64,000 nt of DNA from Terramyces sp. JEL0728 (taxonomy: Eukaryota > Chytridiomycota > Chytridiomycetes > Rhizophydiales > Terramycetaceae). Positions 13,775 through 58,600 of this stretch are shown in pieces. A program made the position numbers and the translations under genes. The stretch spans positions 124,001 to 188,000 of the forward strand of contig JADIIU010000008.1 of the NCBI GenBank assembly GCA_027603945.1, in the 5' to 3' direction. Each line of letters begins with the position of its first letter. Within the stretch, counting starts at the first letter, position 1. The notes beneath the pieces are model-generated. The model saw nothing but the letters and a program-made list of their open reading frames with translations, made no database searches and was not told the origin of the DNA.

Positions 13775-13871
13775 TAAACTTTTTTCATGTTTTATCTATT
13801 TCGGTTGGCGTTTGGATACCCCAAATCACTTGGAAACGATGCGGTACGAGCAGTTAATGTAGGTTGTTGGT

Positions 13872-14084: not shown

Positions 14085-14117
14085 ATAAAACATGATGGAT
14101 ACGTAATCAAATCTTGT

Positions 14118-15083: not shown

Positions 15084-15214
15084 TCGCGCAGTCGCAATAA
15101 AATTGAAATTATCGCTTGTTCCCATGTTTCTGCATGAACATTCAAGCTTTTTATTAATCAAAATCAATTTTAGTCAGGGGTTTGAATCCAAGGTGATGAC
15201 GTACAGCTTCTTAC

Positions 15215-16224: not shown

Positions 16225-16316
16225 AATAAACAGTTGCAGTTTACCAAAAGCATGTTCCTGAACAATGCAACGATGAGATTATAGAGATGGCTTGGTGACG
16301 ACACCTCTTGACAAAT

Positions 16317-17329: not shown

Positions 17330-17464
17330 TAAAGACGATGCGACCCCGAAAATTCTTGAGTTTCTTTAGTAGTCTGTGGTGGGAGCACTTGCCAAGGAGG
17401 AATCCCGTTACTGTGTCTACCAGTCCAATCCAGAACAGCAAACCAAAATAACTTGAATTCTTTA

Positions 17465-19485: not shown

Positions 19486-19500
19486 TTTTCAAAAAAAAAT
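19486..19500. promoter_or_regulatory. 15-bp spacer between divergent SUV3 and SYF1 start codons
   Basis: Only 15 bp (TTTTCAAAAAAAAAT) separate the two ATGs. Both starts are well supported. SUV3 has no other Met in its first exon, and SYF1 needs its first exon for the conserved LPYEEDCFRNP block. Transcription signals must overlap coding DNA, or the 5' UTRs must overlap. The spacer is the same in the second copy (31564-31578). Confidence 0.6.
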
Positions 19501-22193: not shown

Positions 22194-22335
22194 ACCCATT
22201 CTTTGTAGTTTGTTTAAATATTTCGGATGCATGGTTTCCTATCTTGAAAGTTGACTCTCAACGCTATTCATGGTCTGTTGTTACTGAATACTGCTGAGAT
22301 ACAATGCACGACTTGTAACTTTATTCCATTTGAGC

Positions 22336-23690: not shown

Positions 23691-23791
23691 TCAGATTTTC
23701 AAAAGTTTGCGGACAAATGAAGGGGATGATTAGCACTCACCTCAGAACGCAAATAGTTAAATTGAACGAACTTTATTCAAGAAACCAATCC

Positions 23792-25303
23792 TCAATCCAT
23801 GAATACTAGACCGTAACGTCGCTATGATCAAATTTAATTTACCTGGATCCCTCTAAGCAAATCAATTTTCCCCATGCTTTTCCTCAGCAAATCCTTTACT
23901 GGATCCATTTCTTTGCTAGATTCATACCATTTCACAATTTCATTCAGCCAAGTCAACCACAGCTGCAGACAATCCCTATTCTCGTCATCCTCCAATTGTA
24001 CTTTTAATAAATGCGTAATAAACTCAATCGATTCTCCGTTGATTGCTGATGGTGGAAACGAGACCATTATATCTCTTAATAACTGGACTGGAATTTCTGA
24101 TTGCGGTAGTTGGAGGTGGAATATTACCATCAATGCTTCGTAGATGCTCTTTGCTACTTGCTTATTGGCAGTCGCCAGTTCCACAGAACTACATCTCGGC
24201 GTCTCTTCTGCTTTCAAAATATTTACAAGCGCTTCAATATCTAATTGTTGGGCTATCGAAAGCATCCGGTAATAAATCAAACAGTAGCAGTCAAGTAATC
24301 TCTGACTGTTGCCAGTGATAAACCGCACTTGAAGCAATAAAATTGTGTTTACTTGATTCAATAGGCTCCTGCATTGGTTTAATACCACGGTCTTTACACT
24401 GCGGACTACATCGCTTCCCAATTGATGCCAAATTGGATGAAAGTCGCCCTGGAACCAGTCCAAGAGCAACTGACTCGTTTCCAAACATTCGTTGATATCA
24501 TCCTTTAATCCATTCCATTCTTTAAATTCAGTCTTCCATCTTTTAAATGCTTGGTGCAAAGCCGTAAGTGTGAACGACGATGAAGGAATCCTTCGTACAT
24601 CTTTTCTCTGATGAATAAAATGTGAATGGTAATCCAATGCCGGCGCATTCTCTTTGTTGATTGCCAATTCATATAATTGTATATTTGGCAAGAGCGACAT
24701 TAATCTGTACAAAAGCAAATCAACAATTTCGTTATTTTCGTCTAGTTCTTTGTAAATAAAGTAGCGGAATAGTCCTGAATGGACGAATGGAATGTTTTCA
24801 GTCTTGTCGGTCTTTAAATCTGGCTTTGAGAGACTGCCGACTGTTGATGGGCCAAATGATATCCCAGTGACATCTGCAAGACTGCTGTTTCGTTCCAGTT
24901 GGTAAATAAAGTTGTTGATGGATGCTGGTGAAGTTAGTATTGGATGTTTATACAGTTTGTGTCTCAGTAAACGGTACATTCGTTTGTTTGTCATTGACAA
25001 TTCAGCAACCGTTTCTTGTAATTGCACATGATCAGCAATTACCAGCAGTATTTCATTTGGTAATGACAAGATGCTATTCTTTGGTGATTTTGCATACGAG
25101 ATATCAATAGTGGTTTTCGCTGCGATTGGGTTGGGTTGTTTCTTTGTCTGATTCTTTATTTTTTGGAGTGAATCACATACTAGGAACAGCGTGTTCCATG
25201 TTTTTGTGTCTGTGCCTTCCTCTGAATTTTGCTGGTAGTCTAGTACTAGTATTAGTACTGTGAATAGTTTGTTTATGTGGTGCATGGATAAGATTTGTTT
25301 CAT
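23792..25303 (-). CDS. F-box protein, copy 1 (native upstream region lost)
   Basis: The product is predicted to be a substrate adaptor of an SCF ubiquitin ligase. The F-box is near residue 85 (SILSLPNEILLVIADHVQLQ, then ELSMTNKRMYRLLRHKLY). The rest is helical without repeats I recognise. A 21-nt intron near the 3' end adds a short last exon ending in YGLVFMD. In this copy the ATG at 25303 is the last native codon. Beyond it the duplication junction replaces native sequence with B9D2 DNA, read antisense. The native copy at 37403 has six more N-terminal residues (MQWFQN). The promoter here is therefore new or absent, and the gene overlaps possible starts of B9D2 copy 2. Confidence 0.7.
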
Positions 25304-25852
25304 AATAGGAACGATATCAGGAGCCAGCAATTATCCCAAACAAGATTTATGCTGCAAATGGTGTGTAATAACAGGAGACGGATGGAATTTACTCGAAGGT
25401 AATGCTTCAGGACAAACACACGTAGATTTGCCAATAAATCAAACAACAACAATATGGGATCATCCGATAGGTACCTGCAACTAATCCAGATCTGCATTAC
25501 TCTACAAAAACAATAGCTGGGTGGCCGAAACTTGTCGTTAATGTTTATTATCAGGATATGTTTGGCAGACACGAGCTGTATGGATACGGGTTTACGCATT
25601 TGCCTACCACTCCCGGCCATCACACAGTTGAAATACCGACTTGGCGGCCGTGCGGTAACACTAGCGAACAAGTATGGAGTAATATATGCTAATTTAGCAA
25701 TGTTCCTCGGAGCAACACCACAGCTAAAAGACTTGAACATGGTACACGATCCAACAGATAGATTTAGGCTAATGACTAAATCTATGGGAAAAGTACTGTG
25801 CAAGTTTGATATTGTCGTTCGCAACTTTAAGAGTAATGGGATATCGCTTTAA
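25260..25852 (+). CDS. B9D2: B9D2 copy 2, 5'-truncated and fused in frame to novel start
   Basis: The duplication junction at 25301/25302 removes the first five codons (MAELH). The remaining frame continues upstream into antisense F-box DNA with in-frame ATGs at 25260, 25275 and 25284, giving a new N-terminus MNSLFMWCMDKICF before IIGTISG. The rest of the gene, including both 19-nt introns, is intact. The three coding differences from copy 1 that I found are all synonymous. The native promoter and ACGCGT box are absent. It may be silent, or may have gained expression from the junction. It is a possible young chimeric gene rather than an obvious pseudogene. Confidence 0.65.
25295..25308. other. 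Tandem duplication junction with 3-bp microhomology
   Basis: Comparing the left flank (13221 on), the junction (25301 on) and the right end (37383 on), the sequences share only ATA at the exchange point. Left flank DNA reads CATATAATAGG, the junction CATAATAGG, and the right end CATATTCTG. No longer repeat or mobile element is present. This fits microhomology-mediated or replication-based duplication. Confidence 0.8.
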
Positions 25853-25949
25853 TAAACTTTTTTCATGTTTTATCTATTTCGGTTGGCGTTTGGATACCCC
25901 AAATCACTTGGAAACGATGCGGTACGAGCAGTTAATGTAGGTTGTTGGT

Positions 25950-26162
25950 ATGCTTAGTATCTCTGACGGTTATACTTGCTTTGACTGCGGACAAGAGAAT
26001 ATCCTTGACATAGACGCGGATAATGCAAAGTACAGTACCGCCGAAGAGCACAATTATATCGTTATTTTGATGCTCGCGCTTATTCTGGTGCTATTATTTG
26101 CGCTGAAAAGCAAATCGATTAAATCTGTTGATGTAAAGCAAGAGGGAAACGATATCCTCTAA
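25950..26162 (+). CDS. Small putative tail-anchored membrane protein, copy 2
   Basis: This is the second copy of the 70-residue ORF at 13872. It has two amino-acid changes (P19L-type and R to Q near the end) and one synonymous change. The single hydrophobic helix is unchanged. The same uncertainty about the start applies. Confidence 0.45.
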   Translation: MLSISDGYTCFDCGQENILDIDADNAKYSTAEEHNYIVILMLALILVLLFALKSKSIKSVDVKQEGNDIL

Positions 26163-26195
26163 ATAAAACATGATGGATACGTAATTAAATCTTGT

Positions 26196-27161
26196 ATGAC
26201 GCTATTCTTTATGAATAGTACATTTTATCTACAAGATATCTGTGATTATCGCATCAATTACCTTGGCTGTAATTCAGACTTGCAACGAAATTTCCTAGCG
26301 GTAGATTTCGTGCTAATAATTCTGCACAGCTTGTCAATTCTCGTGTTTGCAGGATTAGTAATTCGGAATCAAAGTCGAAAAGCAAAGATTAATTTCAAAA
26401 CAACAGATAAAGTGTGTCTCATATCTATTGTCTCTCATTCCTTCAGGATTGCAACTTTGGTGAATATTAGAATGATTGAGCCAAGTGTCCGATATGTACA
26501 AACTAGCATTGTGTTTGATTACTTGTATTTCGCAGCTGGGTCTATCGCAGCCCATTTGTTTCTTATCGGAGTAGTTGCTGTTGGTGCTGGTGTAAATTTA
26601 TACTCTGATGTCAAAGTTGCAAGTGCGAATATCAGGCCTGAAAAGGTTCTTAATTTGGTTAGACTGCTTGTACTAATGTTTGGATTATCGTTTATTATTG
26701 GCTGGTCAACTGCCGGTGTTCATAGTGGCCAGTATTGGTACACGATATTCCGCAGGTGTGTCTATTCATTGCCAATATTTGTAGTAGTTTTCATTTCACT
26801 CCCGTCGATCATCTTCTTTGGCAACCAAGTATTGGAAACCTTGCAAAAAAGTCATTCAATGGGGAATGCAGAGACAGAAGGATCCGCAGTGGAATCCAGC
26901 GTAGTCAAAGAAGAAACTAACCCGTCTCCACTCAAGGCACAGAGGCCAAGAGATGCTAAAATTGCTACTTTTCGATTGGGATTGAATCTCTGTATCTGGG
27001 TAGTGTATATCCTGACTGTCTTGAACATGACCTGCTTGATGTTTGGATACGAGTACCATTTTACTAGTGATATGTCCCATATTGCTGTGAAAATACTTGG
27101 CGATGCGGCAGTGTGGACTTCAACCAGCACCGTCTGTATTTATCTCTTTTATGCAAGCTAG
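26196..27161 (+). CDS. Orphan seven-transmembrane protein, family 1 member A, copy 2
   Basis: This is the second copy of the gene at 14118, also 321 residues. It differs by three conservative residues that I can see (V to A before TM1, I to V in TM2, V to A in the third loop). All seven TM segments and the N-terminal C-D-x-R-x-N-Y-x-G-C motif are kept. Confidence 0.75.
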   Translation: MTLFFMNSTFYLQDICDYRINYLGCNSDLQRNFLAVDFVLIILHSLSILVFAGLVIRNQSRKAKINFKTTDKVCLISIVSHSFRIATLVNIRMIEPSVRYVQTSIVFDYLYFAAGSIAAHLFLIGVVAVGAGVNLYSDVKVASANIRPEKVLNLVRLLVLMFGLSFIIGWSTAGVHSGQYWYTIFRRCVYSLPIFVVVFISLPSIIFFGNQVLETLQKSHSMGNAETEGSAVESSVVKEETNPSPLKAQRPRDAKIATFRLGLNLCIWVVYILTVLNMTCLMFGYEYHFTSDMSHIAVKILGDAAVWTSTSTVCIYLFYAS

Positions 27162-27294
27162 TCGCGCAGTCGCAATAAAATTGAAATTATCGCTTGCTCC
27201 CATGTTTCTGCATGAACATTCAAACTCTTTATTTAATCAAAATCAATTTTAGTCAGGGGTTTAAATCCAAGGTGATGACGTACAGCTTCTTTAC

Positions 27295-28304
27295 ATGAAT
27301 AACAACACTGTCCTGAGATCGATATGCGACCAAAGAATGAATTATTTCGGATGCAAACCAGAAACAGCGTATTTATTTTCAATGGTTGACACGATCATGC
27401 TCGTTCTAAACTGCTGCAGTGTCGGATGTTACTTGTACAAATTACTAGGATCAATGTACACTAGCAGAAACGCAAAATACAAGCTGGGCCCTACAGATAA
27501 ACTGTGTGTGGTTGGTATAATATCTACTGTTGGTAGAATAGCCCAGATGACTAATTCATTGATTGCGTACCACTACAGAAATGGACTTTCTGATATCCAG
27601 ATTATCAGGCATTTCCAAGCAAATGTCGTGCTAGAGTTTATTTTTTATTCTTCTGGTGCTATTGGCTCAAATATCTTTTTGGTTAGCGTGGTGTCTGCAA
27701 TTGCGGGTGTAGAAATGTACCCGGACTTGGTAGTAGGACAGAGAACTATATCGCCAGCAAAGATATTATCACTGGTCCGCCTTTCGATATCGCTATTGGC
27801 ACTTTCAGTTTCAATAAGCTGGGCAACGCTTGGCACGCAAGCACTGTACTGGTACGTCACGTTCAGGAGATTCAATTACCTCTTGTCGGTATGCATTATC
27901 GTCTGTATATCTTTACCAGTAATCTCATTCTTTGGAAACAAAGTTGTAAAGTTCTTGGAAAGCACTATCGCAGTGCTGGAAAAGAAAAGAACCGTTTATA
28001 CGCAAGGAGAGAGCACGTTAAAGGCAGCTGACCCTGGTAAGAATAAAGCTAACGAGAAAATGGAGAATTTGCAGTCATAAGCAGACAATCCAAGCTTCAT
28101 CATTTTAAAAGCACAATGTATGCCGTGGTGGTCGGCATGTACTTGTTCACCCTCTTCAATCACAGCTGCTTGCTAATTGGATTTGAATCAGCGTATTTTC
28201 AAACCAATACCATGCCGGTAGTCATTCTGAAAGCGTGCGGAGACTTTTCCCTATGGATGACAGTATCGTTTGCTATCCCGTACTTGAAAAAAGAAGTTTC
28301 TTAG
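27295..28304 (+). CDS. Orphan seven-transmembrane protein, family 1 member B, copy 2
   Basis: This is the second copy of the gene at 15215, with the same two-exon structure. The intron changed to GTAAGAATAAAGCTAACGAG, keeping its ends and its CTAAC box. Four residues differ (G to S, A to T, R to H, M to V). Member B is therefore the most changed of the three 7TM genes between copies. Confidence 0.78.
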
Positions 28305-28396
28305 AATAAACAGTTGCAGTTTACCAAAAGCATGTTCCTGAACAATGCAACGATGAGATTATAAAGATGGCTTGGTGACGACACCTCTTGACAAAT

Positions 28397-29409
28397 ATGA
28401 ATAAAACTTATTTGCTAGAAATATGCGACTACAGAATGAATTACTTTGGATGCAAACCAGAACAAATCCACTACTTTGCAATCATAGACATGGTGCTAAT
28501 TGTACTGCACAGCTGTTCTGCACTGGCTTTCGTGTCACTGCTCTTATTAGCAATTCTGAAAAGCAGAGATAGTAAATTTGTGTTTGGCGCTCGAGACAAG
28601 ATTTGCGTTGTTGGGATTATGGCTTTACTTGGCAGAATAGCGCAACTTTCGAATGCGCGAACTGCGTCATATACAAACATGGATCTTCCAGATTCAGCAA
28701 TAATAAGATATTTCCAAGCCAATGTAATGTTGGAGTTTGTATTTTATACTGCTGGGGCATTAGGATCGAATATCTTTTTGGTTGGTGTTGTGTCTGCTAG
28801 TGCTGGTGTGAAATTGTACCCAGACATGTACGTTGGAGGGAAACTATTATCTCCGGAAAAGATCTTGTCCCTAGTAAGGCTGACTTTACTCTTGCTCTCT
28901 TTTTCAATAGCAGTCAGCTGGGCAACTGCTGGAGCGTGGAACGGCGTGTATTGGTACGTTACATTCAGAAGATTCACCTACTTGCTCTCAATAGTCGTAG
29001 TGGTATGCATTTCTTTCCCCGTACTATGTTTCTTTGGGCTGAGAATGAATCGAGTGATTGAAAAAACAGTGCAAGTGCTGGAAAGACCAAAGACTACGTA
29101 TACAGTTGAAGCTAGTACAAACGAAACGTCCGAGCAGGATATAGGTATTCCCAAATTGATATAGTTAAGCCTGCAGAACAGCCAAAAACAACACACATCA
29201 AAAGCTTTAGACTAGCAATTAAAATGACAATCTGGTGCATGTACGTCCTGACTGTATTCAACAATATTTGTTTATTGCTTGGGTTTGAATTGCAATTTTT
29301 TCAGAATAATCTAGTGCCGTTATTGGTGTTGAAAGTGCTGGGGGATTCATCTTTGTGGGTAACTACTTCTTTTATATCCATATATTTGTACCAGTTGCGC
29401 AAATCTTAA
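28397..29409 (+). CDS. Orphan seven-transmembrane protein, family 1 member C, copy 2
   Basis: This is the second copy of the gene at 16317. The predicted 330-residue protein is identical to copy 1. The nucleotide changes seen in exons are synonymous (for example CGA to AGA for one Arg in the FRRF motif). The intron is unchanged. Confidence 0.78.
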
Positions 29410-29542
29410 TAAAGACGATGCGACCCCGAAAATCCTCGAGTTTCTTTAGTAGTCTGGTGGGAGCACTTGCCAAGGAGGAATCCCGTTACTGTGTCTACCA
29501 GTCCAATCCGGAACAGCAAACCAAAATAGCTTGAATTCTTTA

Positions 29543-31563
29543 TTAATAATGCCTGGATCGCTCCTTTCTAATAGGCTGATTCTTGCGCTTTTCATTGTTT
29601 ACACTTGCTTGTTGAGGTAAAGCAGCCCCGTCTGTTAATCCACCAACCTGTTTTGCTTTTTGAATCAAGTGTTCTTCCTCAAACATCCGCTTCCTTTTCC
29701 TAAAACTCATACTCTGCAGTTTTTCATTAATCTTTTCTTCAATCTTTACTTTAAGCACCAGCGATTCATCCAGATCTACAAAAGTTTCTGGGAACCGCTG
29801 TCCAAGCCATAAATAAAGGATGATAATCTTGTGTAGAGTTTCAAGTGTACTTAGGTTGCCTGATTTGTGGAATTGGATGTAGTCTTTGATGTATGCTACA
29901 CTGTTTTCAGCGTGTTTTTGTGCAAAATCAGCAAAGCAGTCCATAATCTGTTCGTGTTTCCCACATGGCGATTGAATAAAGGCATATCTGTCCTTTAATG
30001 TAAGCGGAACTTTTTCTATTTCGTCGGCAAGTCTGCACAGGTCTTTCAAGTTGCAGAAAAAGTAATTCTGATCCAGTGTTGCCAGCTCCTGGAATCTCTG
30101 CAGCAATTCTGACAATTTTAAACCAGGCAGGCTCTGATTAAACCTTTCGATTTGATCAATTTCAGGTAGCAATCCAGCTTTTTCAATAAATGGAATTTCT
30201 GAATTCATATACTGGTGCAACTTTTTCAAATCTTGCTGTTCGAGGGTTGTTACAAGTCCGTTCTCATATTGAGTCTTGAACCTTCCAGCTCTTCCTATTT
30301 TAGTATTAATTACCTGCTATTTGCTTGACTTGACTCACATTCAAAGGTACATTCTTTACTCCGTTGTATTTTTCTAAACTTTCAAATATAATTCGTTTAA
30401 TGTTCAAATTCAGCCCCATCCCAATCGCATCACTTTCATTAACCGAATTCACCTTGCCACCAGTACATTGTACTCGCTGCTATTAAATAGTCTGGCTTGA
30501 TCAGCTCTTGTTTCTGGTGGGAGCCCTCCATAAATAACCGCGACAGTATTATTCTTTTCAATTGCTGCTTTTAAGCTAAAAATATTCTTTCTTGAAAATG
30601 TAACAATACAGTCTCCCTTTTCAATGTTCCTCAACGTTCTAATTGCTTTGTTTTGCATAGTTAGGGATGTTAATCTATTGTATCGGTTGATTTCCATTGT
30701 TTCTCCGGTTTCTTCCAAAATTCTTTCTACCAGAGGAACAGCGCTCTCTTCACCACATAAATGGATTTCATGAGCTCGAACCCCAAGCAGCGCTCTTGTC
30801 CAAGCCCAACCCCTTTCATTGTTTCCAATCTGTTTTAAATCTAAATTACCATTTGTATCTCATCTATCACAGCAACGTCAAATACTTTTTCCAAATTTGT
30901 CATCTCAACAGTAGACGACCACTTGTTCACACCGTCTGATTCTCTCTTTTCTTCTCCAGTAATCAAGTTGCACGGATATCCCAATGAATTTGCCTTGTCG
31001 TATATTTCATGCGCAAGCAGTCTTAGCGGACCACAATACACACCAGCTTCGCTCTTGTAAAACTTTTGCAGGGCAGAATAAGTTTTACCACTATTCGTAG
31101 GTCCAATATGCATGATAATCTTTCTCTTCATTTCTCTGGCTTTGTATGATTCCGCTGGAGTCCTTAAATCCGTGCTCGCCATAATCAAATCAAACTTTTC
31201 CACATGAGGAATATTCTCTTGTATGTACCTGAAGAATAGCGGAATAATTTCCAAATCAAAGTTCTTTACTGTGATCAACGAATGTCTTGTTAACAGTTTC
31301 TACCTGTTTTCACGGTACCAATTCTGGTGTAAATTCTGAACCTGCTTGTCGTTTAAACCCAATATTTCGCACTTGCGTTTGAATTTCTTTGTTTTTGTAA
31401 AGGACTTTAGGTAAGAGTCTAATTTTTGGTTTACTTTGGTGCTGTTAAATCGAACACACAAGCCGATATCCCTAGTCCGTGCTCCTAATAATTGACTGGC
31501 GATATCCCGTATGATATTTGCATTCCGATAAATATTGCCTTGAACGATTCTTGCACTTTGCAT
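29543..31563 (-). CDS. SUV3: Mitochondrial RNA helicase SUV3, copy 2
   Basis: This is the second copy of the gene at 17465, with the same four introns, including the 18-nt one. About seven residues differ, mostly in the N-terminal presequence region and the basic tail. Helicase motifs I, II, V and VI are unchanged. The start codon lies 15 bp from SYF1 copy 2. Confidence 0.93.
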
Positions 31564-31578
31564 TTTTCAAAAAAAAAT

Positions 31579-34271
31579 ATGGTGGATCTGGACTCTTTAA
31601 TCAGAACGGAAGACTTGCCATGTAATAATAACTAACAGCAGACGAGGAAGATTGTTTCAGGAACCCACACAATGTGCGATCATGGGTTCGCTATGTCGAC
31701 TTCAAAAAGTCTCCAACTGAAAAGATTTTTGTGCTCTCAAGAGCGGTATTCACTATTAATGTAGGTTATTTTACTACCAAGATCGTATAAATTATGGAAA
31801 TTACTATTGGATTTACAAACTAACGAATTGATTTCAAATGGAGAAGTCAAAATCCCGCTCAATAATCCAATTTGGCAGCAAGTCAATGGCCACTTTGAAG
31901 AATGCTTGGGTAAGTGTTATTAACGTAGTGCTCTGTAACAAATTTCCTGTTATTTGGGAAACTTACCTGAGGTTTTTGACTAAACAACCCAGACCTACTT
32001 TCACCAGACGCACTTTTGATAGAGCATTAAAGGCACTACCAGTTACGCAACACAAAAAGATCTGGGATTTGTACATTGAATTTGCAAACTATACTGGGGG
32101 AGATACTAGTGTCCGTATTTGGAGAAGATTTTTGAAGATTCAACCGTCACAAGCAGAACGGTTTGTAAACACACTATTGGAAATGACTCCACCAAGAACT
32201 GCAGAAGCTGCTAGAGTACTCACAGCGATTATTGAGTCGCCCAACAAATACGCAAATCCAAACGGAAAAACTTTGTACGAATACTGGTAATCAATTTTAA
32301 TTTAGGTCCGTTTTGTGCAAGATTATTATCGATCACCCAGAAGGAATTTCAATGCCACAGCAAGATCATCTGGTACCCTCATCAGAATTCCAACTCACAC
32401 AGAGACCAGACACATTAGACGTGGAACTAATTCTTCGAGCTGGAATAAAAAGATTCACAAATGAAGTAGGCGTAATGTGGAATAGTTTAGCAAAGTGGTG
32501 GATCTTGAGACTGAATTTTGAAAGAGCACGGGATGTATTCGAAGAAGGAATCAGAACCGTTATTACAGTAAAGGATTTCACAATTATATTTGATGCGTAC
32601 GCTGAAATGGAAGAATCTGTGCTAAATCAAGCCATGCAACAAGGAACTCTAGATGATACCGATATTGATTTGCGGCTGGCTAGATTGGAGCGGTTGATTG
32701 AAAGGAGACCATTCTTGATTTCAGATGTTTTACTAAGACAGAATCCACATAGCGTACTGGAATGGCAGAATAGAATCAAACTGTTTTTGGAACTGGACGA
32801 CTTTGAAAACGTAGTAAAAACGTACACAAAAGCTGTGACTACTGTTGTTCCCCACCGTGCTAACGGAAGTTTGACTGACTTGTGGCTGCAATTTGCCAAT
32901 TTCTATATTGAAAATGACCGATTGAAAGATGCAAGAAATGTATTTGAACAAGCAGTCAAAGTGCCGTTCAGGAAAGTTGATGACTTGGCTCATATCTGGT
33001 GCCAGTATGCGGAGATGGAATTGAAATATTCCAACTATCAGGAAGCAATAAATGTGCTTGGAAGGGCCACTGCCCCCTTGTCCGCAAATCTTGATATCAG
33101 GTAGCTATTTAATTAATATAGATTCAACGACGAATCAAAGACACCGCAACAAAGACTATTCAAGTCAATCAAATTGTGGTCGTTCTATGTTGATTTGGAA
33201 GAGTCTGTCGGGACGGTGGAATCTGCTAAGGCTGTATACGACAGAATTATGGATCTAAAAATAGCAACTCCACAGGTAATCATTAATTACGCTGCATTCC
33301 TTGAAGAAAACAAGTACTTTGAAGAAGTAAACCCAATTAACAATAGAGCTTCAGAGTGTACGAAAGAGGAGTTGAACTATTTGGATATCCGATTGCCTTT
33401 GAAATTTGGAATTTGTATTTGACGAAATTCATTGCTCGCTATGGAGGAGCTAAACTTGAGCGTGCAAGAGATCTGTTTGAAAATGCACTTGAAAAATGTC
33501 CGCCAAAGTTGGCAAAGCCATTGTATCTCTTGTATGCTAAGCTTGAAGAAGATTTTGGGCTGGCTAGAAATTCCTTGGCAATCTATGATAGAGGAACAAA
33601 GAGCGTCACACCAGAAGATTTATATGAAATGTTCTTGGTTTATATCGCAAAAGCCACTTCTTTCTATGGAATTGTGTCCACCAGAGACATTTACTCAAAA
33701 GCTCTTGAAGTGCTACCAGACAAGTCTGCAAGAGACATGGCTATCAAATTTGCAGAAATGGAGACCAAACTTGGTGAAATTGACCGGGCAAGAGCCGTCC
33801 TTGGTTATTCTTCACAAATTTGCGATCCAAGAGTGGACCAACAATTCTGGCAAATATGGCACGAATTTGAAGCCAAATACGGCAACGAAGATACATATAA
33901 GGAAATGCTCAGGTAGATTAAACTAATGTAGAATCAAACGCAGCGTCCAAGCCAGATTCAATTCTCAAGTATCATTCATCTCTTCACAAATCCTGCAGCA
34001 AAGAAAAGAAAATGATTTGGAAGAACAAGAAAACAACAATACCAAAGTTGCTGGATTCGTTAGAGCAGCGGAAACTGAACCCAAATTGGAGCAAAGCACT
34101 GAAAACACTGAAAACCCTGACGAGATTGAAATTGAAGAGAGTGACGAAGATGAAGAGCCTGAAGAAGTTGTTGAAAAGAGCATCCCTAACGCTGTGTTTG
34201 GGTCTTTGAAGGAGGAAGACGAAAATCTTGGCGCTAAGGATCGGTTTAAACGGAAGAGGGCTCAAGAATAA
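31579..34271 (+). CDS. SYF1: Pre-mRNA-splicing factor SYF1/XAB2, copy 2
   Basis: This is the second copy of the gene at 19501, with the same eight exons. Differences are one D to N near the N-terminus and several changes in the acidic/basic tail (TQNAEN to TENTEN, and AMERLK to AKDRFK). The HAT repeats are unchanged in the exons I compared. Two expressed copies would double the dose of a stoichiometric spliceosome scaffold. Confidence 0.93.
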
Positions 34272-34413
34272 ACCCATTCTTTGTAGTTTGTTTAAATATT
34301 TCGGATACATGGTTTCCTATCTTGAAAGTTGACTCTCAACGCTATTCATGGTCTGTTGTTACTGAATACTGCTGTGATACAATGCACGACTTGTAATTTT
34401 ATTCCATTTGAGC

Positions 34414-35768
34414 CTATTGCCCATTGATAACGCAAGAGCTAAGTATTCGGACAAGTGCTAGTCCAAGCAGCCCACCTTCACATACACGCATCATTTCATA
34501 CACATCTTCCTCTGTAAAAACCAGCAACCCAGATTCGACCAGCCCTAAACAGTCATTCAAATGGCGTTCTTGTACATTGCCACTTTTAATTAAATCGATA
34601 AGTATTCTACTTGCTTCATTGTACTGTTGCTCTTGATACAGCTTTTTGAATTTTTCATAGTGATGGTGAGTATTCAAGTAAGGCGATTTCAACAAGTATT
34701 CCTGTGGATATTCTTTTGTAGGTGTAAAGTACTTGATCAGGTGAAGATCATTAGATTGCACATAGTGTTCGATTGGGTCTTCACCGGGGATTTTTGCAAA
34801 TATACGATGGATTTCACTTTTTTCATCCATCAATGAGTGTTCTTGGCAGTAATCAAATACGCTCGCATCTGTTATACGTACTACTAGTCCTTTGACATAT
34901 GCTTTAGGAAGGTACTCAAATGCCATTTTCCAATCTTCCAAGATCAACTCTCCATACGTGATCAATTGGCTTTCGTTACTCTTGATTTTGTTTTCCAATA
35001 AATATAAATCACCCAGATGTACTGCTAGCCATGAATCAAGCCTTGCCCCTAATTCAATAGTGGAATCGTGTTCGTTTGCTAATATTGAAAACAATACTTG
35101 ATCAATCACATTACTAGGATTCAACAAAGACAGAATAAGCGGGAATTTGTAACCGGCAATCAATAGCGCCATCATTTTGAATGTCCAGTTGAGATCCAAT
35201 TGAAGAATCATCGTTTCATCGCCAGTCATAACTTCATACACTGTATTAGTAACAAATACCTCTTTTCAACGCCCCGCCTCTCTTTAACTGGAATTGTAGG
35301 CTATTTCTTTTATCTATTCCTTGTTTCTTCCAAACAGTAAATTCCGGTTCCAGCTTTTCAATAGCTTCGTAAAACCCGCAACAAGCGAGTGAATCCAGTA
35401 AATCGCTGTACTTTGAATCTTGCTTTGGATTTAATAGACCAGATATGCGTTTGTACTCTTGCTGCAAGTCAGACAAAAAATTCAATTGGATCCACTGCTT
35501 CATGTTTTCAAGAGAGTACTGATAATTCAAGATGTGTGATAAATGCACGATTGCGTGTATGGCAGACAGATGCGCTGGATTAATTTATAGTACCTTGGTC
35601 TTCTGGGGTTTTGCCGGATTGCACTTGGGAGAGCAGTAGTTTCATGTACGTTGCTGATTTCTCTTGCACAGCAGCTTTCGATTTAAATACTTGCAGCGAA
35701 GATTTGTGAAACTGATTTATTTCTACTTTGAATTTGTATTGTTTGTTTTTCAAAGTGAACCGATTCAT
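34414..35768 (-). CDS. NUP85: Nucleoporin NUP85, copy 2
   Basis: This is the second copy of the gene at 22336. It shows A to V and G to S changes and otherwise the same protein, with both 19-nt introns kept. Three single-base insertions relative to copy 1 lie just upstream of the start codon, in non-coding DNA. Confidence 0.74.
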
Positions 35769-35873
35769 TCAGATTTTCAAAAGTTTGTGGACAAAATGTA
35801 AGGGGATGATTAAGCACTCACTTCAGAACGCAAATAGTTAAATTGAACGAAATTTATTCAAAGAAACCAATCC

Positions 35874-37403
35874 TCAATCCATGAATACTAGACCGTAACG
35901 TCGCTATGATCAAATTTAATTTACCTGGATCCCTCTAAGCAAATCAATTTTCCCCATGCTTTTCCTCAGCAAATCCTTTACTGGATCCATTTCTTTGCTA
36001 GATTCATACCATTTCACAATTTCATTCAGCCAAGTCAACCACAGCTGCAGACAATCCCTATTCTCGTCATCCTCCAATTGTACTTTTAATAAATGCGTAA
36101 TAAACTCAATCGATTCTCCATTGATTGCTGATGGTGGAAACGAGACCATTATATCTCTTAATAACTGGACTGGAATTTCTGATTGCGGTAGTTGGAGGTG
36201 GAATATTACCATCAATGCTTCGTAGATGCTCTTTGCTACTTGCTTATTGGCAGTCGCCAGTTCCACAGAACTACATCTCGGCGTCTCTTCTGCTTTCAAA
36301 ATATTTACAAGCGCTTCAATATCTAATTGTTGGGCTATCGAAAGCATCCGGTAATAAATCAAACAGTAGCAGTCAAGTAATCTCTGACTGTTGCCAGTGA
36401 TAAACCGTACTTGAAGCAATAAAATTGTGTTCACTTGATTCAATAAACTCCTGCATTGGTTTAATACCACGGTCTTTACACTGCGGACTACATCGCTTCC
36501 CAATTGATGCCAAATTGGATGAAAGTCACCCTGGAACCAGTCCAAGAGCAACTGACTCGTTTCCAAACATTCGTTGATATCATCCTTTAATCCATTCCAT
36601 TCTTTAAATTCAGTTTTCCATTTTTTAAATGCTTGGTGCAAAGCCGTAAGTGTGAACGACGATGAAGGAATCCTTCGTACATCTTTTCTCTGATGAATAA
36701 AATGTGAATGGTAATCTAATGCTGGCGCATTCTCTTTGTTGATTGCCAATTCATATAATTGTATATTTGGCAAGAGCGACATTAATCTGTACAAAAGCAA
36801 ATCAACAATTTCGTTATTTTCGTCTAGTTCTTTGTAAATAAAGTAGCGGAATAGTCCTGAATGGACGAATGGAATGTTTTCAGTTTTGTCGGTCTTTAAA
36901 TCTGGTTTTGAGAGACTGCCGACTGTTGATGGGCCAAATGATATCCCAGTGACATCTGCAAGACTGCTGTTTCGTTCCAGTTGGTAAATAAAGTTGTTGA
37001 TGGATGCTGGTGAAGTTAGTATTGGATGTTTATACAGTTTGTGTCTCAGTAAATGGTACATTCGTTTGTTTGTCATTGACAATTCAGCAACCGTTTCTTG
37101 TAATTGCACATGATCAGCAATTGCCAGCAGTATCTCATTAGGTAATGACAAGATGCTATTCTTTGGTGATTTTGCATACGAGATATCAATAGTGGTTTTC
37201 ACTGCGATTGGGTTGGGTTGTTTCTTTGTCTGATTCTTTATTTTTTGGAGTGAATCACATACTAGGAACAGCGTGTTCCATGTTTTTGTGTCTGTGCCTT
37301 CCTCTGAATTTTGCTGGTAGTCTAGTACTAGTATTAGTACTGTGAATAGTTTGTTTATGTGGTGCATGGATAAGATTTGTTTCATATTCTGAAACCACTG
37401 CAT
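35874..37403 (-). CDS. F-box protein, copy 2 (native start retained)
   Basis: This is the second copy of the gene at 23792. It keeps its native upstream sequence and can start at 37403 (MQWFQNMKQ) or at the ATG at 37385. With the 21-nt last intron it encodes 496 to 502 residues. Residue changes against copy 1 include A to V, V to A and R to H within or near the F-box, and R to K further on. It is the copy most likely to be expressed as before the duplication. Confidence 0.72.
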
Positions 37404-48978: not shown

Positions 48979-49998
48979 CTATACATCTTTAATTAAACCA
49001 ACAAAAGAAGGCCGCTGTTGGTCAAACATGAACCCTCTGGTTCCAACAGAATACCCGATTACGCCATTTCCATACTGAGCACTTCCAACAACCCCGCCAA
49101 CATAAACCTCGTTGATTAAATTCCCGCTAAAATCTATTTCTCGTATCCATCCATCTGTATCACCATACAAAATATCATCCTTTATATCAAAATATAGTCG
49201 CTGGTTTTTAGCCTTCCTTTCTATCAATTTAGTGCTCAGATTCCGCGCGTCGTAAATGGATACCCCGCCATTGCGCATCGAATACACAATGTAATTATCT
49301 TTTTGCTTGATTTGAGTTATTCCATTCGGCTCTTTAATGTAGTTGGTATACCCGTCCTGGTAAAGAGTAATCAACCCGTTAAAAGTGCCGATACAGTTCA
49401 AATGGGTAAAATCCATGCAAGATACAAGTCCCTGTATTTTCAAAGATTCTTTTTCTTGACCGGATATATCGTATACTTGAACCAGGTTCTTGAACCCAAA
49501 GTATAGATCTGTATGATTGAATTTAGCAGTTAGCGGAGTTATTTGCTCACCCAGCAAGTGTGTTTTGTATGCTTGGCGCTGGTAATAATGCACTGAGTCG
49601 TAGAGCACTGGCGGATGGTCTTTTATTGATATCACAAAGCATTTGTGCTGGTCTGATAGGCTGTAGTACGGGTAAAAGTCGAATGAATAGATTTGGTCTG
49701 GGAATTTACAGGCTTTCCTTTCGTCCATTCCAATCCTCTTGATTAGTTTTGTATTTTTTGGGTTCACACTATGCAGCGATTCACTCTCCACTGCATCCAA
49801 CCGCATTGATCGATCCATTGGGTTCAAGTTACTGTCGAATGAGTTTTTGTTCTGTGTGTGGTTTGAATCCAACTCCAGTCGATCCATTGCAGGGACGCTT
49901 TCCAAATCCTGCAAGTGCAATAATTCGTTGAATTCAGTCAGCCCAACCACTTCATTCCCACCAGGTGCAAACCAAATCTGAGAATAAAAATTGTTCAT
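48979..49998 (-). CDS. WRAP53: WRAP53/TCAB1-like WD40 protein
   Basis: In animals TCAB1 binds CAB-box RNAs and brings telomerase and scaRNPs to Cajal bodies; the yeast relative Swt21 acts in splicing. The single-exon gene encodes up to 339 residues. After a polar N-terminus the WD repeats start at QIYSFDFYPYYSLSDQHKCF. Then follow KDHPPVLYDSVHYYQRQAYK, LYFGFKNLVQVYDISG, and the most diagnostic block KNQRLYFDIKDDILYGDTDG (family NQRIYFDL...SG). The repeats are shorter and more degenerate than in animals. The first ATG (49998) overlaps the PI synthase ATG; a start at one of the internal Met codons is possible because the N-terminus is not conserved. Confidence 0.72.
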   Translation of the reverse strand: MNNFYSQIWFAPGGNEVVGLTEFNELLHLQDLESVPAMDRLELDSNHTQNKNSFDSNLNPMDRSMRLDAVESESLHSVNPKNTKLIKRIGMDERKACKFPDQIYSFDFYPYYSLSDQHKCFVISIKDHPPVLYDSVHYYQRQAYKTHLLGEQITPLTAKFNHTDLYFGFKNLVQVYDISGQEKESLKIQGLVSCMDFTHLNCIGTFNGLITLYQDGYTNYIKEPNGITQIKQKDNYIVYSMRNGGVSIYDARNLSTKLIERKAKNQRLYFDIKDDILYGDTDGWIREIDFSGNLINEVYVGGVVGSAQYGNGVIGYSVGTRGFMFDQQRPSFVGLIKDV

Positions 49999-50800
49999 GC
50001 AACAAATCACAATCCTCAAATCTTTTATAGAACAAAAAACGAATACAAAACTCAACCCGGTATTTTTCTACATTCCCAACTTGATTGGTTATTCCAGGAT
50101 TATATTTGGGTTGATTTCATTGCTACTCATGAATAGGTATCCGTATTCAGCCATTTTGTTTTATGGGATTTCTTGTCTTTTGGATGCACTCGATGGATAC
50201 GCTGCGAGGTTTGTTTTGTTAATGTAGGCATTATAATCAGTCATCGCAGTTCGGAGCTGTGTTGGATATGGTAACCGACAGGTATACTCTATTAATCCAT
50301 AGGTAATTAGATTTAACCCTAGGTGTCTAATATATTAATCCACAGGTACGTGGGGTTTTAATGATAGGTAACCAGCATTAACATAGGTCTACTACCGCAT
50401 GCTTGTTGATACACTTGGCCAGACTTTACCCCTCATTCACATTTCTTTTCCAACTACTGGTCTCGCTAGACTTGTCATCTCATTACATGCACATGTTTTC
50501 CTCTCTAAAGTCAGGAAAAGAATCTCATAAACAAGTGGACGAAAACACCAACAAATTCATGCAACTCTACTATACAGACAGGACCGTCTTGTTCCTGGTG
50601 TAATTATTACTAACCGCAGATGTGCTGGGAATGAATTGTGTTTTGTGTTTTTATATGCCCTGTTCTGGTTCACAAACTGGTTTACTATTGGTGGATTGAT
50701 TTTGACTTTACCTGTATGTGGGTTCAAACAATTCATGAATGTGATCCAGTTGCAAGAAGCCAGCACATTTTTGGCCGAGTTGGATACTAAAAATAAATGA
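49997..50800 (+). CDS. PIS1: CDP-diacylglycerol--inositol 3-phosphatidyltransferase (PI synthase)
   Basis: This ER membrane enzyme makes phosphatidylinositol from CDP-DAG and inositol. The spliced product has 219 residues (yeast 220). The CDP-alcohol phosphotransferase motif D-x2-DG-x2-AR-x8-G-x3-D-x3-D reads LDALDGYAARHYNQSSQFGA then VLDMVTDR. It is complete only after a 19-nt intron (50209-50227) is removed. Removing 50282-50386 (five adjoining intron units, 105 nt) joins DMVTDR to STTACLLIHLARLYP without loss or gain of residues. A last 20-nt intron (50600-50619) restores LFLVCAGNELCFVFLY. Several TM segments follow the catalytic motif. The ATG at 49997 is the only one before the conserved FFYIPNLIGYSRI; it overlaps the WRAP53 start on the other strand. 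Confidence 0.95.
50282..50386 (+). other. Array of five back-to-back microintrons in PIS1
   Basis: The 105 nt between two exons of PIS1 divide exactly into five intron-like units of 21, 20, 23, 22 and 19 nt (starts 50282, 50303, 50323, 50346 and 50368). Each begins GT (GTATAC, GTAATT, GTGTCT, GTACGT, GTAACC) and ends AG. Each has TTAAT or TTAAC a few bases before the AG, just like single introns elsewhere in the window. No exon bases lie between units: every boundary reads AG|GT. The protein alignment across the site is gapless, so the whole stretch must be removed. It could go as one 105-nt intron or by successive splicing. Confidence 0.85.
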
Positions 50801-52600: not shown

Positions 52601-55600
52601 TTATTGCAAACCAAGTTTGGTAACTCGGTAAATTGTACCCCAAGCAGAAGGTGTAACGATGCCTTTCAATACAGTCGGTGTAATGAACCCTAGTTTAGGC
52701 GATGTGCAGCAGCTACTTTCTTGCACATCCTGCCACACTACAACTTGGCTGATTTTCAGAGTTTGCTTGTTCAGTGTTGCTTCAACAACCAAAGCCAATA
52801 ACTGATCAAACAGTCCAACTAGTCTGCTCGCAAAAGAAGGCTTGATGTTCATGTAAATGAAATTGAGTGTTACAGTCGTATCTGACGGCTCAATCAACAA
52901 ATTCATGTCAAATTCACTGTAAAATGATTTTAGGTCGAGGTGTACAGTCCCGTTCCCAAAATTGTATCCTTTGTTGGAGCTGGTTGGCATGTTTTGGTAG
53001 TAGAATACAGAATTCCATAATTTGCTGTGCCATGGAATAGATCCTGACCATTTGATGTAACTTGATAAGCTTGGGTGATGGACACTGGTAGCAAAACTAT
53101 CCGCTTGCACAATTTTAATAAATTCGTGAATTTCCAACGTTTCATCAACCTTTAATCGAGTTGGGGAGACGTGGATGGCACAGCCAACAATACTAAATTA
53201 ATACAATAGTACTCTTCTACGTTCTCTATATCTAAATCTCTTCCTGAAAACATGTTGCCAAACAAAACCTCATTCTTGCCACTAAAAGAAGCAAGAACTA
53301 GTCCCCAAACCGATTTGAATATCATTGCTGGTGTCACTCCCATCATTGAAGCCGCTTTGTTTACATCAGCTAACAGAGTCTGAAATTCTTTGGAGATTTT
53401 CTTTACAGATTTGGAATTGTCGTAGCAAGATGGGTTGAAATCGGGCATGCGTGCGTCTTTCAGGTATTTCTTGAAATAATCTTGGGATAGATTCTGGTTT
53501 GCTTGAATATACTGAGGCAATCCTTTGATGGATGTTGACTGGCGCAGTTTGTTCCCATCCATATGTGCAAAAATGTCGTTTACAATTCTGCTTGATGACC
53601 AACCATCGTATAATACATGGTGCATAGAAAGCACAAGATCGGTGAATTTGCCATTGGTTTCTACCAGGGCCAGTTTGAAATAACAGTATTCAGCAATATT
53701 AAATCCAGTCGCTGCTTTATCTTTTAAATATTTATCCAAGTTGCCGACAATTTGGATTTTATGAGCGAATGGTTTTTGCAAAGCCTGGTACACACCTTTA
53801 TCCGTCAAAAAGAACCTCGTCCTTAGTGCTGGATGAACGGTAATTGCCTGAAAGACTGCAGATTCTAGCTTTACCGCAGCAATGGGAGAATTGATTTTCC
53901 AAGTAATTTGGAAACAGTAGGCATTTGGTTCAACAAGTGTTTTCAAGAATATCGATGCTTGCATTGGAGTTGCAGGATAGATATCAATGATCGTCGGGTC
54001 GCTTTTTTTGACATTGGACATGATTTGGTTTCTAACGCTGTTGCTAGATTAATCTCAGAGTACCTGATACTACATTCCTCGTTAATGATGATTGGTTTTC
54101 CTTTTGGTAGCTCCTTTGTGTACAATGATGCAATTCTGGACAATGTTTGCTTTTGGAATACCAGCGCAGAAGTTAAAGGAAACCCAATTTCCTTTGCTTG
54201 TTTTATCATCCGAGTCAACAGAATTGAATCACCACCCAATTCAAAAAAGGATGAATTCTTGCCAACTATGTTTAAATCAATTTTCAGCAAGTCTGCCCAG
54301 ATCTGAGCCAACTGCATCTCCATTTCAGTTTCTGGTTTTTCAAATTCAACTTTGATTTCCATCTTCATTATGGCTTTCTTGTCAACCTTTCCATTTGAAG
54401 TCAGTGGCAGAGAATCCATTGGAATAATAACCGAGGGCACCATATAAAACGGCATACAGTCCAATGCCAAGTCAAGGATAGCGCCAACATTTGCAGTTAT
54501 TGGAGTTACAAAGGCAACCAATTTCTCATCAATGACCAATACTTCTGCAGATTCGACAAGCTTCAGGTTGTTTTTTACCTCATTCAATTCTATTCTGTAT
54601 CCATTCAACTTGATCATATCGTCATTTCGTCCTAGGAATTCAATTTCTCCATTTTCTGTCCACCTGCACACATCGCCAGTGCGATACAGCTTGCTTCCGT
54701 CATTCACGAATACGTTGTCAATAAATCTTTCATCAGTCAGATCTTGTCTATACAGGTATCCTAAAGCAACACCAGTTCCACCAACCAGTAACTCACCAGA
54801 CACACCAATTGGTACTAGATTCAGTGATTTATCCACAATGTATTGGTTTGTATTTGCTAGAGGCTTTCCAATAGTGATTGTTTCGATATCGGGGTTGACT
54901 TTTAATGACGTGCATGTAATTGTAATTTCGGATGGCCCGTATGTGTTGTACATGCTTACTATTGGTGACCATTTATCAACCAACTCGCGGTCAAGCGCTT
55001 CGCCACCTACAATCAGCTGTTTTAGGTTTGGATAATCGTTAGGATCCAGCGATTTTAATAGTGATGGAGTCATATGCACTGCATCCACTTTATGCAGCAA
55101 ATCAAAGCTGTCTGCTTCTTTTAAAACCAGAGTTGAATAATTGGACAGCACCATAAAGATATCAGATTCGCACGTATCAAAATTGATTGAAACTACATTT
55201 GCCCACTTCATGTGGTTGATTTTGTAAGCGTGTGGAATCTGTACTGTGGCATAATTGGCAAGCGACAAGTGCGAGATTACAACCCCTTTTGGTTTTCCAG
55301 TTGATCCTGAAGTGAAAACAACATAAGCTGGATCTGATCCTGAAACAGCCCTTTCTTGTACTTGGGCATTTTCATACAGAGAACAATCAAGCGAGAACAC
55401 TGCGATCCCCAGCTCCTTCAAGCTGTCAACGATTAAGGGATCTGAATCTGGATGTACTAGTGCCTTTTTTGCGTGTGCCTCTGTAACAATGGTGGTAATT
55501 CTTCCCACAGGCATTGAATTGTCTATAGGGATATAAGCACCTCCAGCTTTCAAAACGGCGAATATTCCTACTATGAATTCGAATGATCTGCTGGTGATTA

Positions 55601-58600
55601 TAGGAATAAATTCTCCTATTTGTACATTTTCCTGAATCAAAAACTGCCCAAGATTTTTTGCATTTTGATTCAATTCCCCATAGGTGATCTGTTTGTTGTA
55701 TTGTTCCAAAGCAACCAATTCCGGGTTGGAGCTGGCAATATCTTCAAATGCATGATGAGCCAGCTGATACTTTATCTCCAAATCTTTGCCGTAACCAAAC
55801 TTCAAGACCTGAGATTTCAAATCGGCAGGCAGTATTCGAATATCACCAACAGAAACATTCCTGTTTCCAACACAACTTTCGATGATGTTGCTGGCCACAC
55901 TCTCAAAAATGTGCAGCAATTTCCAACAATGATCTGCAGATACATTCCAGGGAAGAAAAGTAATATTCAGCAGATAATCCCGATCCTGCGGAAACACTGT
56001 AAGTCCCAGTGGAAATGAAGCTTGGTTTGGATAAAACATTTGTTCCAGGTTGATGGGACAGAGGTTAATGTCTTTAAATCCATGTCGTCGTGTATTTTGG
56101 AACACAAACAATGTTTCCACAAGCGATTTAATCGACACCCAGTTTTGAATCTGGCCAAGCCCAACTGCAGAGAATTCACTCTTTTCCAAGTATTCTACAG
56201 TCATTTTCTGCAGCAAATCAATAATATTCATTCCGTTTGTAGTTACTCTGCATGGTACACTGCTGATTGTCGGGCCAGTGATTTCTTCAATACCGTCAAG
56301 TGCAATTTCTCTTCCAGAAACGACTTCAGCAAATACTACATCTTGGGTTGACGCGAAAATTTGCAGAGTGATTCCCCATGCAGCTTTCAATATTATTGCA
56401 GGAGTAGACTTTGATTTGACTGCGGCTAATTGCAGAGACTGGACTGTAAATGAGCTTGAATGATCAAACGATTGATGTTTGTTTTCATCTGTAGAGATTT
56501 TCTTGTTGAACATTGTTGATGGAATAGAACCTTCTAAATACTTTGCCCAGTACGCTTCAATTTTGCTCGGGTCTTGCGAGTAGTAGTATTGGATGTAAGG
56601 CTTGAAGTTTGCAGCGGCTGGTTCGAAACAACCATTGAACGCCAGCTCAAAGTCTTTAAAGAAAATTCCCAAGCTCCATCCATCATACACTAAATGATGA
56701 AAAGTGTAGATGAAAAATGCTTCATCTCCAGTCTTGAGGATTGTTGCTCTTGACCAATGTGGTTCAGGTTCGGAAAAGCCTGCGCGTTTATCCTGTTCCA
56801 AGAAATCTGCAAGGGTTCCTTCTTCAAATGACAGACTTGGCTTAAATTGGTGATCTACAAACTGAAATACAGAGCTTTCAACTATGCAGAAGCCGGTCTT
56901 TAAAACATTGTGTTTCTCCACTACTTTCAGCCAGGCGTCATAGTAATCAGCTGGAGCATTTTGAGCAACCTTCCAAACAATGTGTTCCAGGTATGCTGAT
57001 CGGGATTCTAGAGTTGCCGCGTACATTTCTTGTTGCATGTTGGTGCATGGATAGCATTCAATATCTTTTAAATCAAACTTTTTGCAAACTTTGCCGTGAA
57101 TGTGGGGTCTGGATTAAGAAATATTACTCTAGTACTAGAGGTTTCAGTTCCGTAGTGGGTGCTGGTTGACCTTTTGCGGCCATGTTCTTGATGGTTTTTA
57201 GAGCGAATATGTCTTTGACAGTCAAGGGAATCCCACGCTTTGTGCACATATTTGCCAATAAAACCGCAGTAACAGAATCACCGCCCAATAAAAAGAAATC
57301 ACTATGTGCCAGCAAGTATTTCTTTTCCAATTCCAAAATATCGATAATCAAGGAAGAAATGGCATTTTCGGATTCAGACAATAAACTTTTCGCATATCCT
57401 GAAATGTCAAACTCTTTTAGATCATCAATATCAATAGGGATACTTTCTACCGATACAACCACACTAGGAATGTTGGCAGGCAAGTTTTCTGTGATTGCAG
57501 ATTTTACCTTGTCCATATCCAATTCAGAATCTTGCTTAATGAACACTACCAGATCATTTTCAATTTCCAACATTCCAAGTTCGTTTACCCCTACTAATTC
57601 TCTGATTCTAGTCTTGTCAATAGCATATCCCTGCATATTCACGACCTCATTTCTATTTTCATTTTCTGGAAGGAAAATCTTGTCCAGTAAATCTGAATAG
57701 GATTCCATAAACACATGTTTGGGTGCAGATGGTTTTACATTGGAGCAAGTGATTTTGCCAATACCAAAAGATTTACCAGGACCAAAGTCTATCACGTGTG
57801 TTGGGGTTACTTTTGAGCAAGCAGTAACCCAATCAAGCTGCTTGCAAAAAATCAAGTCTAAAACAAGGCCAGTCAGGCTCCCCGAATAGTCTCTAATATC
57901 GCTACCTTGATTAGATAAAATTACCATCGAAGGTATTCACGACGGGAAGCTTCAAATCCCTGACAGACCACATTTCCTGACACTCCAAATCTTGGGATAC
58001 CAATTTTGAGCACTTTTCAAGGTACTGCGTATGGAATGGAGCTTTAATGGGCAAGAATTTGTACTGCACTTTTTCATTTGTTTGTTGAGCCTTGATTAGT
58101 AAAAGATACCTTTGAGAGTGCTACTGTGAGTTTGTTCAAGCTAGATTCAAGCCCACACAACACGAGTGTCTTTGGCCCATTGATTAAACCAATATAAACG
58201 GAATCGTTATGCATGTTGAATTCATCAACAATTGAATTTAATTCTTTTCGCGAGAGGCCATTAACAGACAGCATTGATGAACTCGGTGTTGCGACACACA
58301 CTTTACTTGCGTGTTTTCCAATCAGGGAGAGCAAGCGGATCGACTTTGCAAAGTTTAATTTGAAATCATTGAGGGTAGAACTAGCTGAAATGGCGAGAGC
58401 TGAAACAAGTCCTTGACTATGTCCCAACACAACAGAGAATGACTGGTTGAATTCCTGTGGAGTAATTCCTTGTTCCACGCAACAGAGATAGTAATGGCAT
58501 AATTGAGTCAATCCAATTAGAGGGCAGCTAACTGCTACAGATGCCAAGTAAGTAGCTTCTGGCGGATCTTTTGTAATCCAGTCAATTAAAGGCCAGCCCA

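Follow-up and report, generated by a model that had tools for sequence, protein, structure and literature searches.

The 105 nt between the second and third exons of the PI synthase gene (PIS1) of the chytrid Terramyces sp. JEL0728 are probably five autonomous spliceosomal microintrons, laid end to end without any exon between them and removed singly, and stacks of this kind, which recur in many genes of the genome, appear to grow mainly by tandem duplication; from the sequence, we put the probability of this reading at about 70%. The gene lies in a window of 64,000 nt (the whole stretch of DNA that was analysed) on contig C8 (223,151 nt) of a 15.0-Mb assembly. Its four exons are interrupted by two ordinary introns, one of 19 nt and one of 20 nt, and by the 105-nt stretch at 50282..50386, as follows (window positions):

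49997..50208, plus strand: PIS1 exon 1, with a probable ATG at 49997 (translation, homology)
50209..50227, plus strand: ordinary solitary intron of PIS1, 19 nt (gene finder, translation)
50228..50281, plus strand: PIS1 exon 2, with the 3′ end GACAG
50282..50302, plus strand: PIS1 stack unit 1, 21 nt, box TTAAT
50303..50322, plus strand: PIS1 stack unit 2, 20 nt, box TTAAC; its donor scores highest among the five units
50323..50345, plus strand: PIS1 stack unit 3, 23 nt, box TTAAT; its donor, GTGTC, scores lowest among the five units
50346..50367, plus strand: PIS1 stack unit 4, 22 nt, box TTAAT
50368..50386, plus strand: PIS1 stack unit 5, 19 nt, box TTAAC
50387..50599, plus strand: PIS1 exon 3, with the 5′ start GTCTAC
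50600..50619, plus strand: ordinary solitary intron of PIS1, 20 nt
50620..50800, plus strand: PIS1 exon 4, including the stop codon

An earlier, sequence-only reading of this DNA had divided the 105 nt without remainder into units of 21, 20, 23, 22 and 19 nt, each running from GT to AG with a box near its end, and re-reading confirms the division. The TTAAT or TTAAC box stands 2–4 nt 5′ of the AG in all five units, and every boundary, four inner and two outer, is AG|GT (6/6), as had been stated. The protein is likewise gapless across the site: the CDP-alcohol phosphatidyltransferase match (PIS1 residues 25–151) contains the joint VTD/RSTTACLL left by removal of the 105 nt, and the run VTDRSTTACLL is also found in the PIS1 homologues P0001, P0002 and P0003. 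Among the 32 possible retention states of the units, two keep the frame to the PIS1 C-terminus: the one in which all five are removed and the one in which only unit 1 stays. Five adjoining introns separated by zero-length exons, the proposal of that reading, is the interpretation that the sequence backs best, and it recurs in the genome. Among the best 120 matches to the spliced PIS1 protein, the names Terramyces and Boothiomyces are absent, perhaps owing to tiny introns that break annotation; the window's HSP70-like protein is 100% identical, across the full query, to a protein of Terramyces sp. JEL0728 (Rhizophydiales), and the nearest named relatives are from Boothiomyces, at 91–93% identity.

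The tiling is far beyond chance. When the 105 nt were shuffled 200,000 times with dinucleotides preserved and ends fixed, none of the shuffled sequences tiled into at least four units with boxes and four did so without boxes. Among all GT..AG segments of 85–124 nt in 264 kb (n = 60,338), six tile without boxes and two with them, both of the latter being the PIS1 stretch itself and its first four units. A second shuffle test (50,000 each) gave 0 for the VPS34 stack and 0 for the ITFG1 stack, both described below, and 2 for PIS1, where the box was not required. A first chain search of the 264 kb returned PIS1 and two lone pairs, which look like chance. A chance pattern, an assembly error or a pseudogene is therefore an extremely improbable account: loose junction patterns do yield many chance pairs, but a chance origin of the PIS1 tiling is ruled out by the shuffle and segment counts, the stacks lie in conserved genes with open frames, and the units of PIS1 are not repetitive in a way that would let an assembler add copies.

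Small introns dominate this genome. With a flat length model, a gene finder made 332 intron calls in 264 kb, with a sharp peak at 19–22 nt (136 calls); 143 of the 332 are 17–24 nt long and the remainder, most of which look spurious, form a thin spread up to 200 nt. Trained on the peak, the gene finder called 399 introns, 380 of them of 17–24 nt with a mode of 20, a range that the length prior of the trained model favours. Their donor is GTA and their box, xYTAAY, lies mostly 2–3 nt 5′ of the AG; all 380 solitary introns start with GT and 303 of the 380 have the box. Nineteen of the calls exceed 24 nt, PIS1 included, and most look doubtful; protein homology confirms only two, of 45 nt in RPS3 (L010 4814–4858) and of 123 nt in RPL7 (L008 3082–3204), and we disregarded a further call, of 44 nt at the beginning of RPL7, because it looked doubtful. 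Neither confirmed intron tiles into units. These two introns rule out an absence of longer introns from the genome and show that the 18–23 nt range, given earlier for the other introns decoded, does not cover every intron here. The suggestion that the splicing machinery may not handle a 105-nt intron is not supported: ordinary introns of 45 and 123 nt exist, so a single 105-nt excision is possible by size.

The sequence-only reading had proposed a genome-wide search for units joined at AG|GT. We searched the genome with strict patterns consisting of a box, YAG|GTA and a second box, taking the reversed pattern as control. At a spacing of 0 between AG and GT, boxes of the form CTAAY gave 46 matches against 6 in the control; TTAAY boxes gave 54 against 14 and CTGAY boxes 25 against 6. 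Pooled, the three patterns mark 125 junctions (PIS1 included) in about 100 places, 13 of which have at least two junctions, and the controls put the number expected by chance at about 26 of the 125. The excess vanishes with one or two bases inserted between AG and GT (CTAAY pattern, 2 matches against 7 in the control at spacing 1 and 4 against 9 at spacing 2). A spacing of 3, one codon, gave 17 against 5, with 10 of the 17 in ACC arrays on contigs C17 and C106 and the other 7 close to the control. A looser first pattern (122 against 109) cannot separate stacks from chance, which the stricter spacing of box and acceptor can. Stacks are nonetheless rare: an unselected sample of 200 kb contained 303 introns, none of which has a neighbour joined at AG|GT (GC donors disallowed).

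We read 22 stacks in full, amounting to 85 units and 63 junctions. Seven stacks have two units, three have three, six have four and two have five; one has six (L054, truncated at the border of the stretch and possibly longer), two have seven and one has eight, the last (L065) abutting within 182 nt. Stack totals range from 38 to 182 nt and unit lengths from 19 to 25 nt, with a mean of 21.1 nt against 20.0 nt for solitary introns. Unit borders were placed at AG|GT or AG|GC; 83 of the 85 units start with GT and two with GC, and 80 carry YTDAY 1–6 nt from the AG. PIS1 was given, three stacks (VPS34, L022b and ITFG1b) were met beside neighbouring matches, and the other 18 came through hits to intact-site patterns, so that their intact motifs are partly ascertained; the short stretches were chosen at pattern hits and are not an unbiased sample. 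Among the 27 loci from the looser pattern, PIS1 aside, nine had stack calls (seven kept, with ten stacks) and 18 had none. The count of 22 leaves out L028 and L033, whose gene models are uncertain, L062 and L064, which are second copies of L052 and L063, and L057, which has 3-nt exons.

Several stacks can be compared with homologous proteins. In VPS34, seven units of 22, 22, 22, 22, 22, 24 and 20 nt (154 nt), the second with a GC donor, have outer limits set by homology to human VPS34, the joined WNEW|ITFPI aligning with WNEWLKLPV without a gap at the stack site. The gene next to it, a divergent neighbour of the ITFG1-like FG-GAP type, contains a stack of seven units (149 nt) before GFGDFNND and a two-unit stack further on. 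Over the seven-unit region the joined protein is gapless against P0247 and P0260 (Batrachochytrium and Globomyces); the Boothiomyces records P0242 and P0243 have other, unlike N-termini that lack the joined sequence upstream of GFGDF. The NCBI Terramyces protein P0241 agrees with our reading over the two-unit stack and starts downstream of the seven-unit stack. Units that start with GC (GCATGC.. and GCAAAT..) lie inside two stacks, L045 1932–2085 and 1453–1601, and GC–AG microintrons may be used in this genome.

Stacks of two or three units also occur in HDAC6-like, TAF5-like, CAP-Gly/LRR, HAT1-like, universal-stress and kinase-like genes. The two-unit stack of the HDAC6-like gene is gapless against HDAC6 domain 1, with small gaps near the junction against domain 2; CAP_GLY, Hat1_N, Usp and PRK domain matches extend across further stacks, and a LisH match across L026 scores 20.9 bits, under the curated cut-off of 21.6. 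Searches of Pfam with the short spliced peptides of L052 and L056 gave no match. For eleven stacks on short stretches (L052–L056, L058–L061, L063 and L065), continuity is judged only by the frames being open to either side. In PIS1, VPS34, the HDAC6-like gene and the stacks spanned by domains, a continuous protein appears to require that the entire stretch be removed.

In the mechanism that we propose, each unit, which has a donor, a branch box and an acceptor of its own, spaced as is usual in this genome, would be recognised by intron definition and excised as a separate intron of about 20 nt, in any order. Each removal would leave an AG|GT junction and thereby keep the next 5′ site intact; because all PIS1 boundaries are AG|GT, the same mRNA would result whatever the order of removal. 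What the sequence itself establishes is the architecture, its presence in many genes, the continuity of the proteins, the tandem copies and the single-unit difference between two gene copies. Both the unit-by-unit removal and its order are what we infer from the arrangement of sites, as are selection on the inner units and the mechanism of copying, and jumps across several units may occur as well. A poly-proline gene (L057 1–350; G000:C106:24991–25340), labelled formin-like by eye only, has eleven introns of 20–23 nt separated in part by eight 3-nt ACC exons, each of which completes one proline codon in frame. Such codon-sized exons would be most simply explained if each intron were spliced alone. 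Only part of these introns differ in sequence, the rest being mutual copies, which weakens the argument, and duplication of a 23-nt unit seems to play a part in this gene too.

Two other accounts of the splicing have to be weighed. That each stack is one ordinary long intron built by tandem copying, using its first donor and last acceptor and keeping the inner sites as relics, is unlikely in our estimate, although the 45-nt and 123-nt introns show that non-tiling introns of such size exist here and the stacks with identical units (L054, L059 and L065) may be young enough for unselected inner sites to survive. If only the outermost sites worked, the inner ones would be expected to decay. In the 15 stacks of at least three units, however, the scores of inner donors and of inner boxes plus acceptors do not fall significantly below those of the outermost sites (p = 0.45 and 0.33; n = 15 versus 46), and they lie far above random GT..AG. 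Stack units as a whole have lower mean donor scores (0.38–0.56) than solitary introns (1.28). In PIS1, VPS34, ITFG1, L053, L056 and L058, the units are unlike and yet the inner sites are intact, with junctions of AG|GT or AG|GC, although borders were set at those motifs and most stacks were found by pattern. The donor of PIS1 unit 1, which would have to serve the whole 105 nt, is weaker than those of units 2, 4 and 5, and it begins GTATAC where the confirmed long introns of RPS3 and RPL7 begin GTAAGT and GTAAGA. The second account holds that any AG|GT donor pairs with any downstream acceptor, often skipping units, so that the stack is a redundant substrate without fixed order. It gains from the PIS1 boundaries, since every complete path through them ends in one product, and from the longer introns that the genome tolerates; the sharp peak at 19–22 nt, which appears even under the flat length model, suggests instead that donors and acceptors are paired with a marked preference for size, and we consider such mixed removal quite improbable. 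Removal of the units one at a time remains the reading that we prefer.

The units also bear on how stacks arise. We judged the similarity of units over their full length against the 99% level of random intron pairs. Of the 63 adjacent pairs, 15 lie above this level; for non-adjacent pairs within stacks the figure is 9 of 94, and for pairs between stacks it is 9 of 3,413. Clearly similar neighbouring units are found in 8 of the 22 stacks. Some units are identical: five 20-mers in L054, three 23-mers in L065 and three 20-mers in L059. The long stacks L054 and L065 (G000:C128, 21651–22900) lie about 1 kb apart on opposite strands. Two near-identical copies of one gene, labelled dynein-like by eye only, on contigs C37 (L052) and C56 (L062) have five and four units, respectively, and differ by one 21-nt unit, with four substitutions in 209 aligned bases. 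Because adjacent units are often alike and these gene copies differ by a single unit, stacks would seem to arise mainly through tandem duplication and loss of whole introns in place. A microintron would be duplicated in register, by slippage or local recopying, and the units of the resulting stack would drift apart afterwards while being selected as introns.

PIS1 itself speaks less clearly. No pair of its units exceeds the 99% level over the full length, and in PIS1, VPS34, ITFG1, L053, L056 and L058 the units resemble one another no more than random introns do. The sequence-only reading had seen likeness near the 3′ ends of units 1 and 3 and of units 2 and 5, and had taken it as a hint of intron duplication. 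Over the last 13 nt, units 1 and 3 agree at 12 positions, a marginal likeness (the best pair in a set of five random introns reaches it with p = 0.013), whereas units 2 and 5 agree at only 6. The idea of duplication is thus well backed by the identical or near-identical neighbours in other stacks and weakly in PIS1, where the stack could represent old, diverged duplications or independent insertions. Independent insertion of introns at one AG|GT protosplice site, in place of tandem duplication, concerns the origin only, and its odds overlap those of the other readings. The lack of significant full-length similarity among the units of PIS1, VPS34 and ITFG1 favours it; at 303 introns per 200 kb, rough arithmetic nevertheless predicts a few dozen doublets genome-wide and almost no triplets, and stacks of four to eight units exist, 8 of the 22 stacks have similar or identical units, and the C37 and C56 copies differ by one unit. 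As a general explanation we regard independent insertion as doubtful. Somewhat better than even, in our judgement, are the odds of a bolder form of the duplication reading, in which introns act like a microsatellite: complete units of about 20 nt would expand and contract as tandem repeats (two to eight or more) and splice themselves out recursively, leaving the protein unaffected.

Drosophila Ubx is a case of recursive splicing. Recursive splicing at zero-length exons is known, and its sites subdivide longer introns (PMC5126111). An acceptor AG abutting a donor GT is common to both systems, and the four inner junctions of PIS1 have this juxtaposed AG|GT; a 5′ site rebuilt by splicing and a junction without any remaining exon would be shared as well. 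The known class is, however, defined by its intermediates and splits long introns; the stacks are identified here from DNA and consist of full units of about 20 nt with their own branch boxes, and with totals of 38–182 nt and units of 19–25 nt they do not subdivide a long intron. Stwintrons are complex intervening sequences of fungal spliceosomal introns that undergo consecutive splicing, and an AG directly upstream combined with a GT directly downstream is absent from the 117 stwintrons considered there (PMC9024468). There the internal intron sits within a donor, branch or acceptor element of the external intron and has to leave first; by contrast, GT, box and AG are complete and uninterrupted in every PIS1 unit, and the order would not have to matter.

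Intron gain by tandem genomic duplication through AGGT, yielding precisely spliced segments bounded by AG|GT, has also been described (PMC3443670). In that route an exonic segment is turned into an intron, whereas the arrays of this genome seem to come from in-place copying of an intron that was already present. Similarity between adjacent copies is found in 8 of the 22 stacks and, in PIS1, not over the full length. Introners multiply introns within one genome, are known in fungi and leave similar copies at many loci. Here, the likeness lies within stacks and not between them: pairs between stacks exceed the threshold only in the 9 of 3,413 cases given above, and stacks compared with each other are no more similar than random introns. 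Ciliate ultra-short introns and the introns of chlorarachniophyte nucleomorphs (18–21 nt) are genome-wide and form a class of about 20–25 nt. All five PIS1 units share the features of microintrons (GT..AG, a branch box near the acceptor and a length of about 18–24 nt). Titles and abstract openings, which included few subscription papers, revealed neither three or more directly adjoining spliceosomal introns nor introns of about 20 nt in chytrids, and no adjoining arrays of ciliate-type ultra-short introns were found in titles and abstract openings. There is a fair chance that stacked microintrons will deserve a name of their own once RNA confirms them.

If the units are spliced singly, the spliceosome handles introns near the lower size limit that are packed without exons, and the stacks test intron definition, the reuse of splice sites and the spacing between successive reactions. 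Because the C37 and C56 gene copies differ in their number of units, the gain and loss of introns can be measured as changes in repeat number; were the microsatellite-like reading true, the stacks would represent a new type of gene architecture and a way of gaining introns that can be observed directly. Annotation is affected as well, the public Terramyces ITFG1 protein P0241 beginning 3′ of its seven-unit stack.

Across the whole window, Rfam at gathering thresholds gave no match and ARAGORN with the bacterial code gave no tRNA. The window also holds a direct repeat, at about 13200–23800 and 25300–35900, with an offset of 12,078–12,080 and about 98–99% identity where the offset holds; both copies carry open reading frames of equal sizes. 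At 53943–57927 on the minus strand, condensation, AMP-binding and carrier domains make up a nonribosomal peptide synthetase-like gene in this chytrid.
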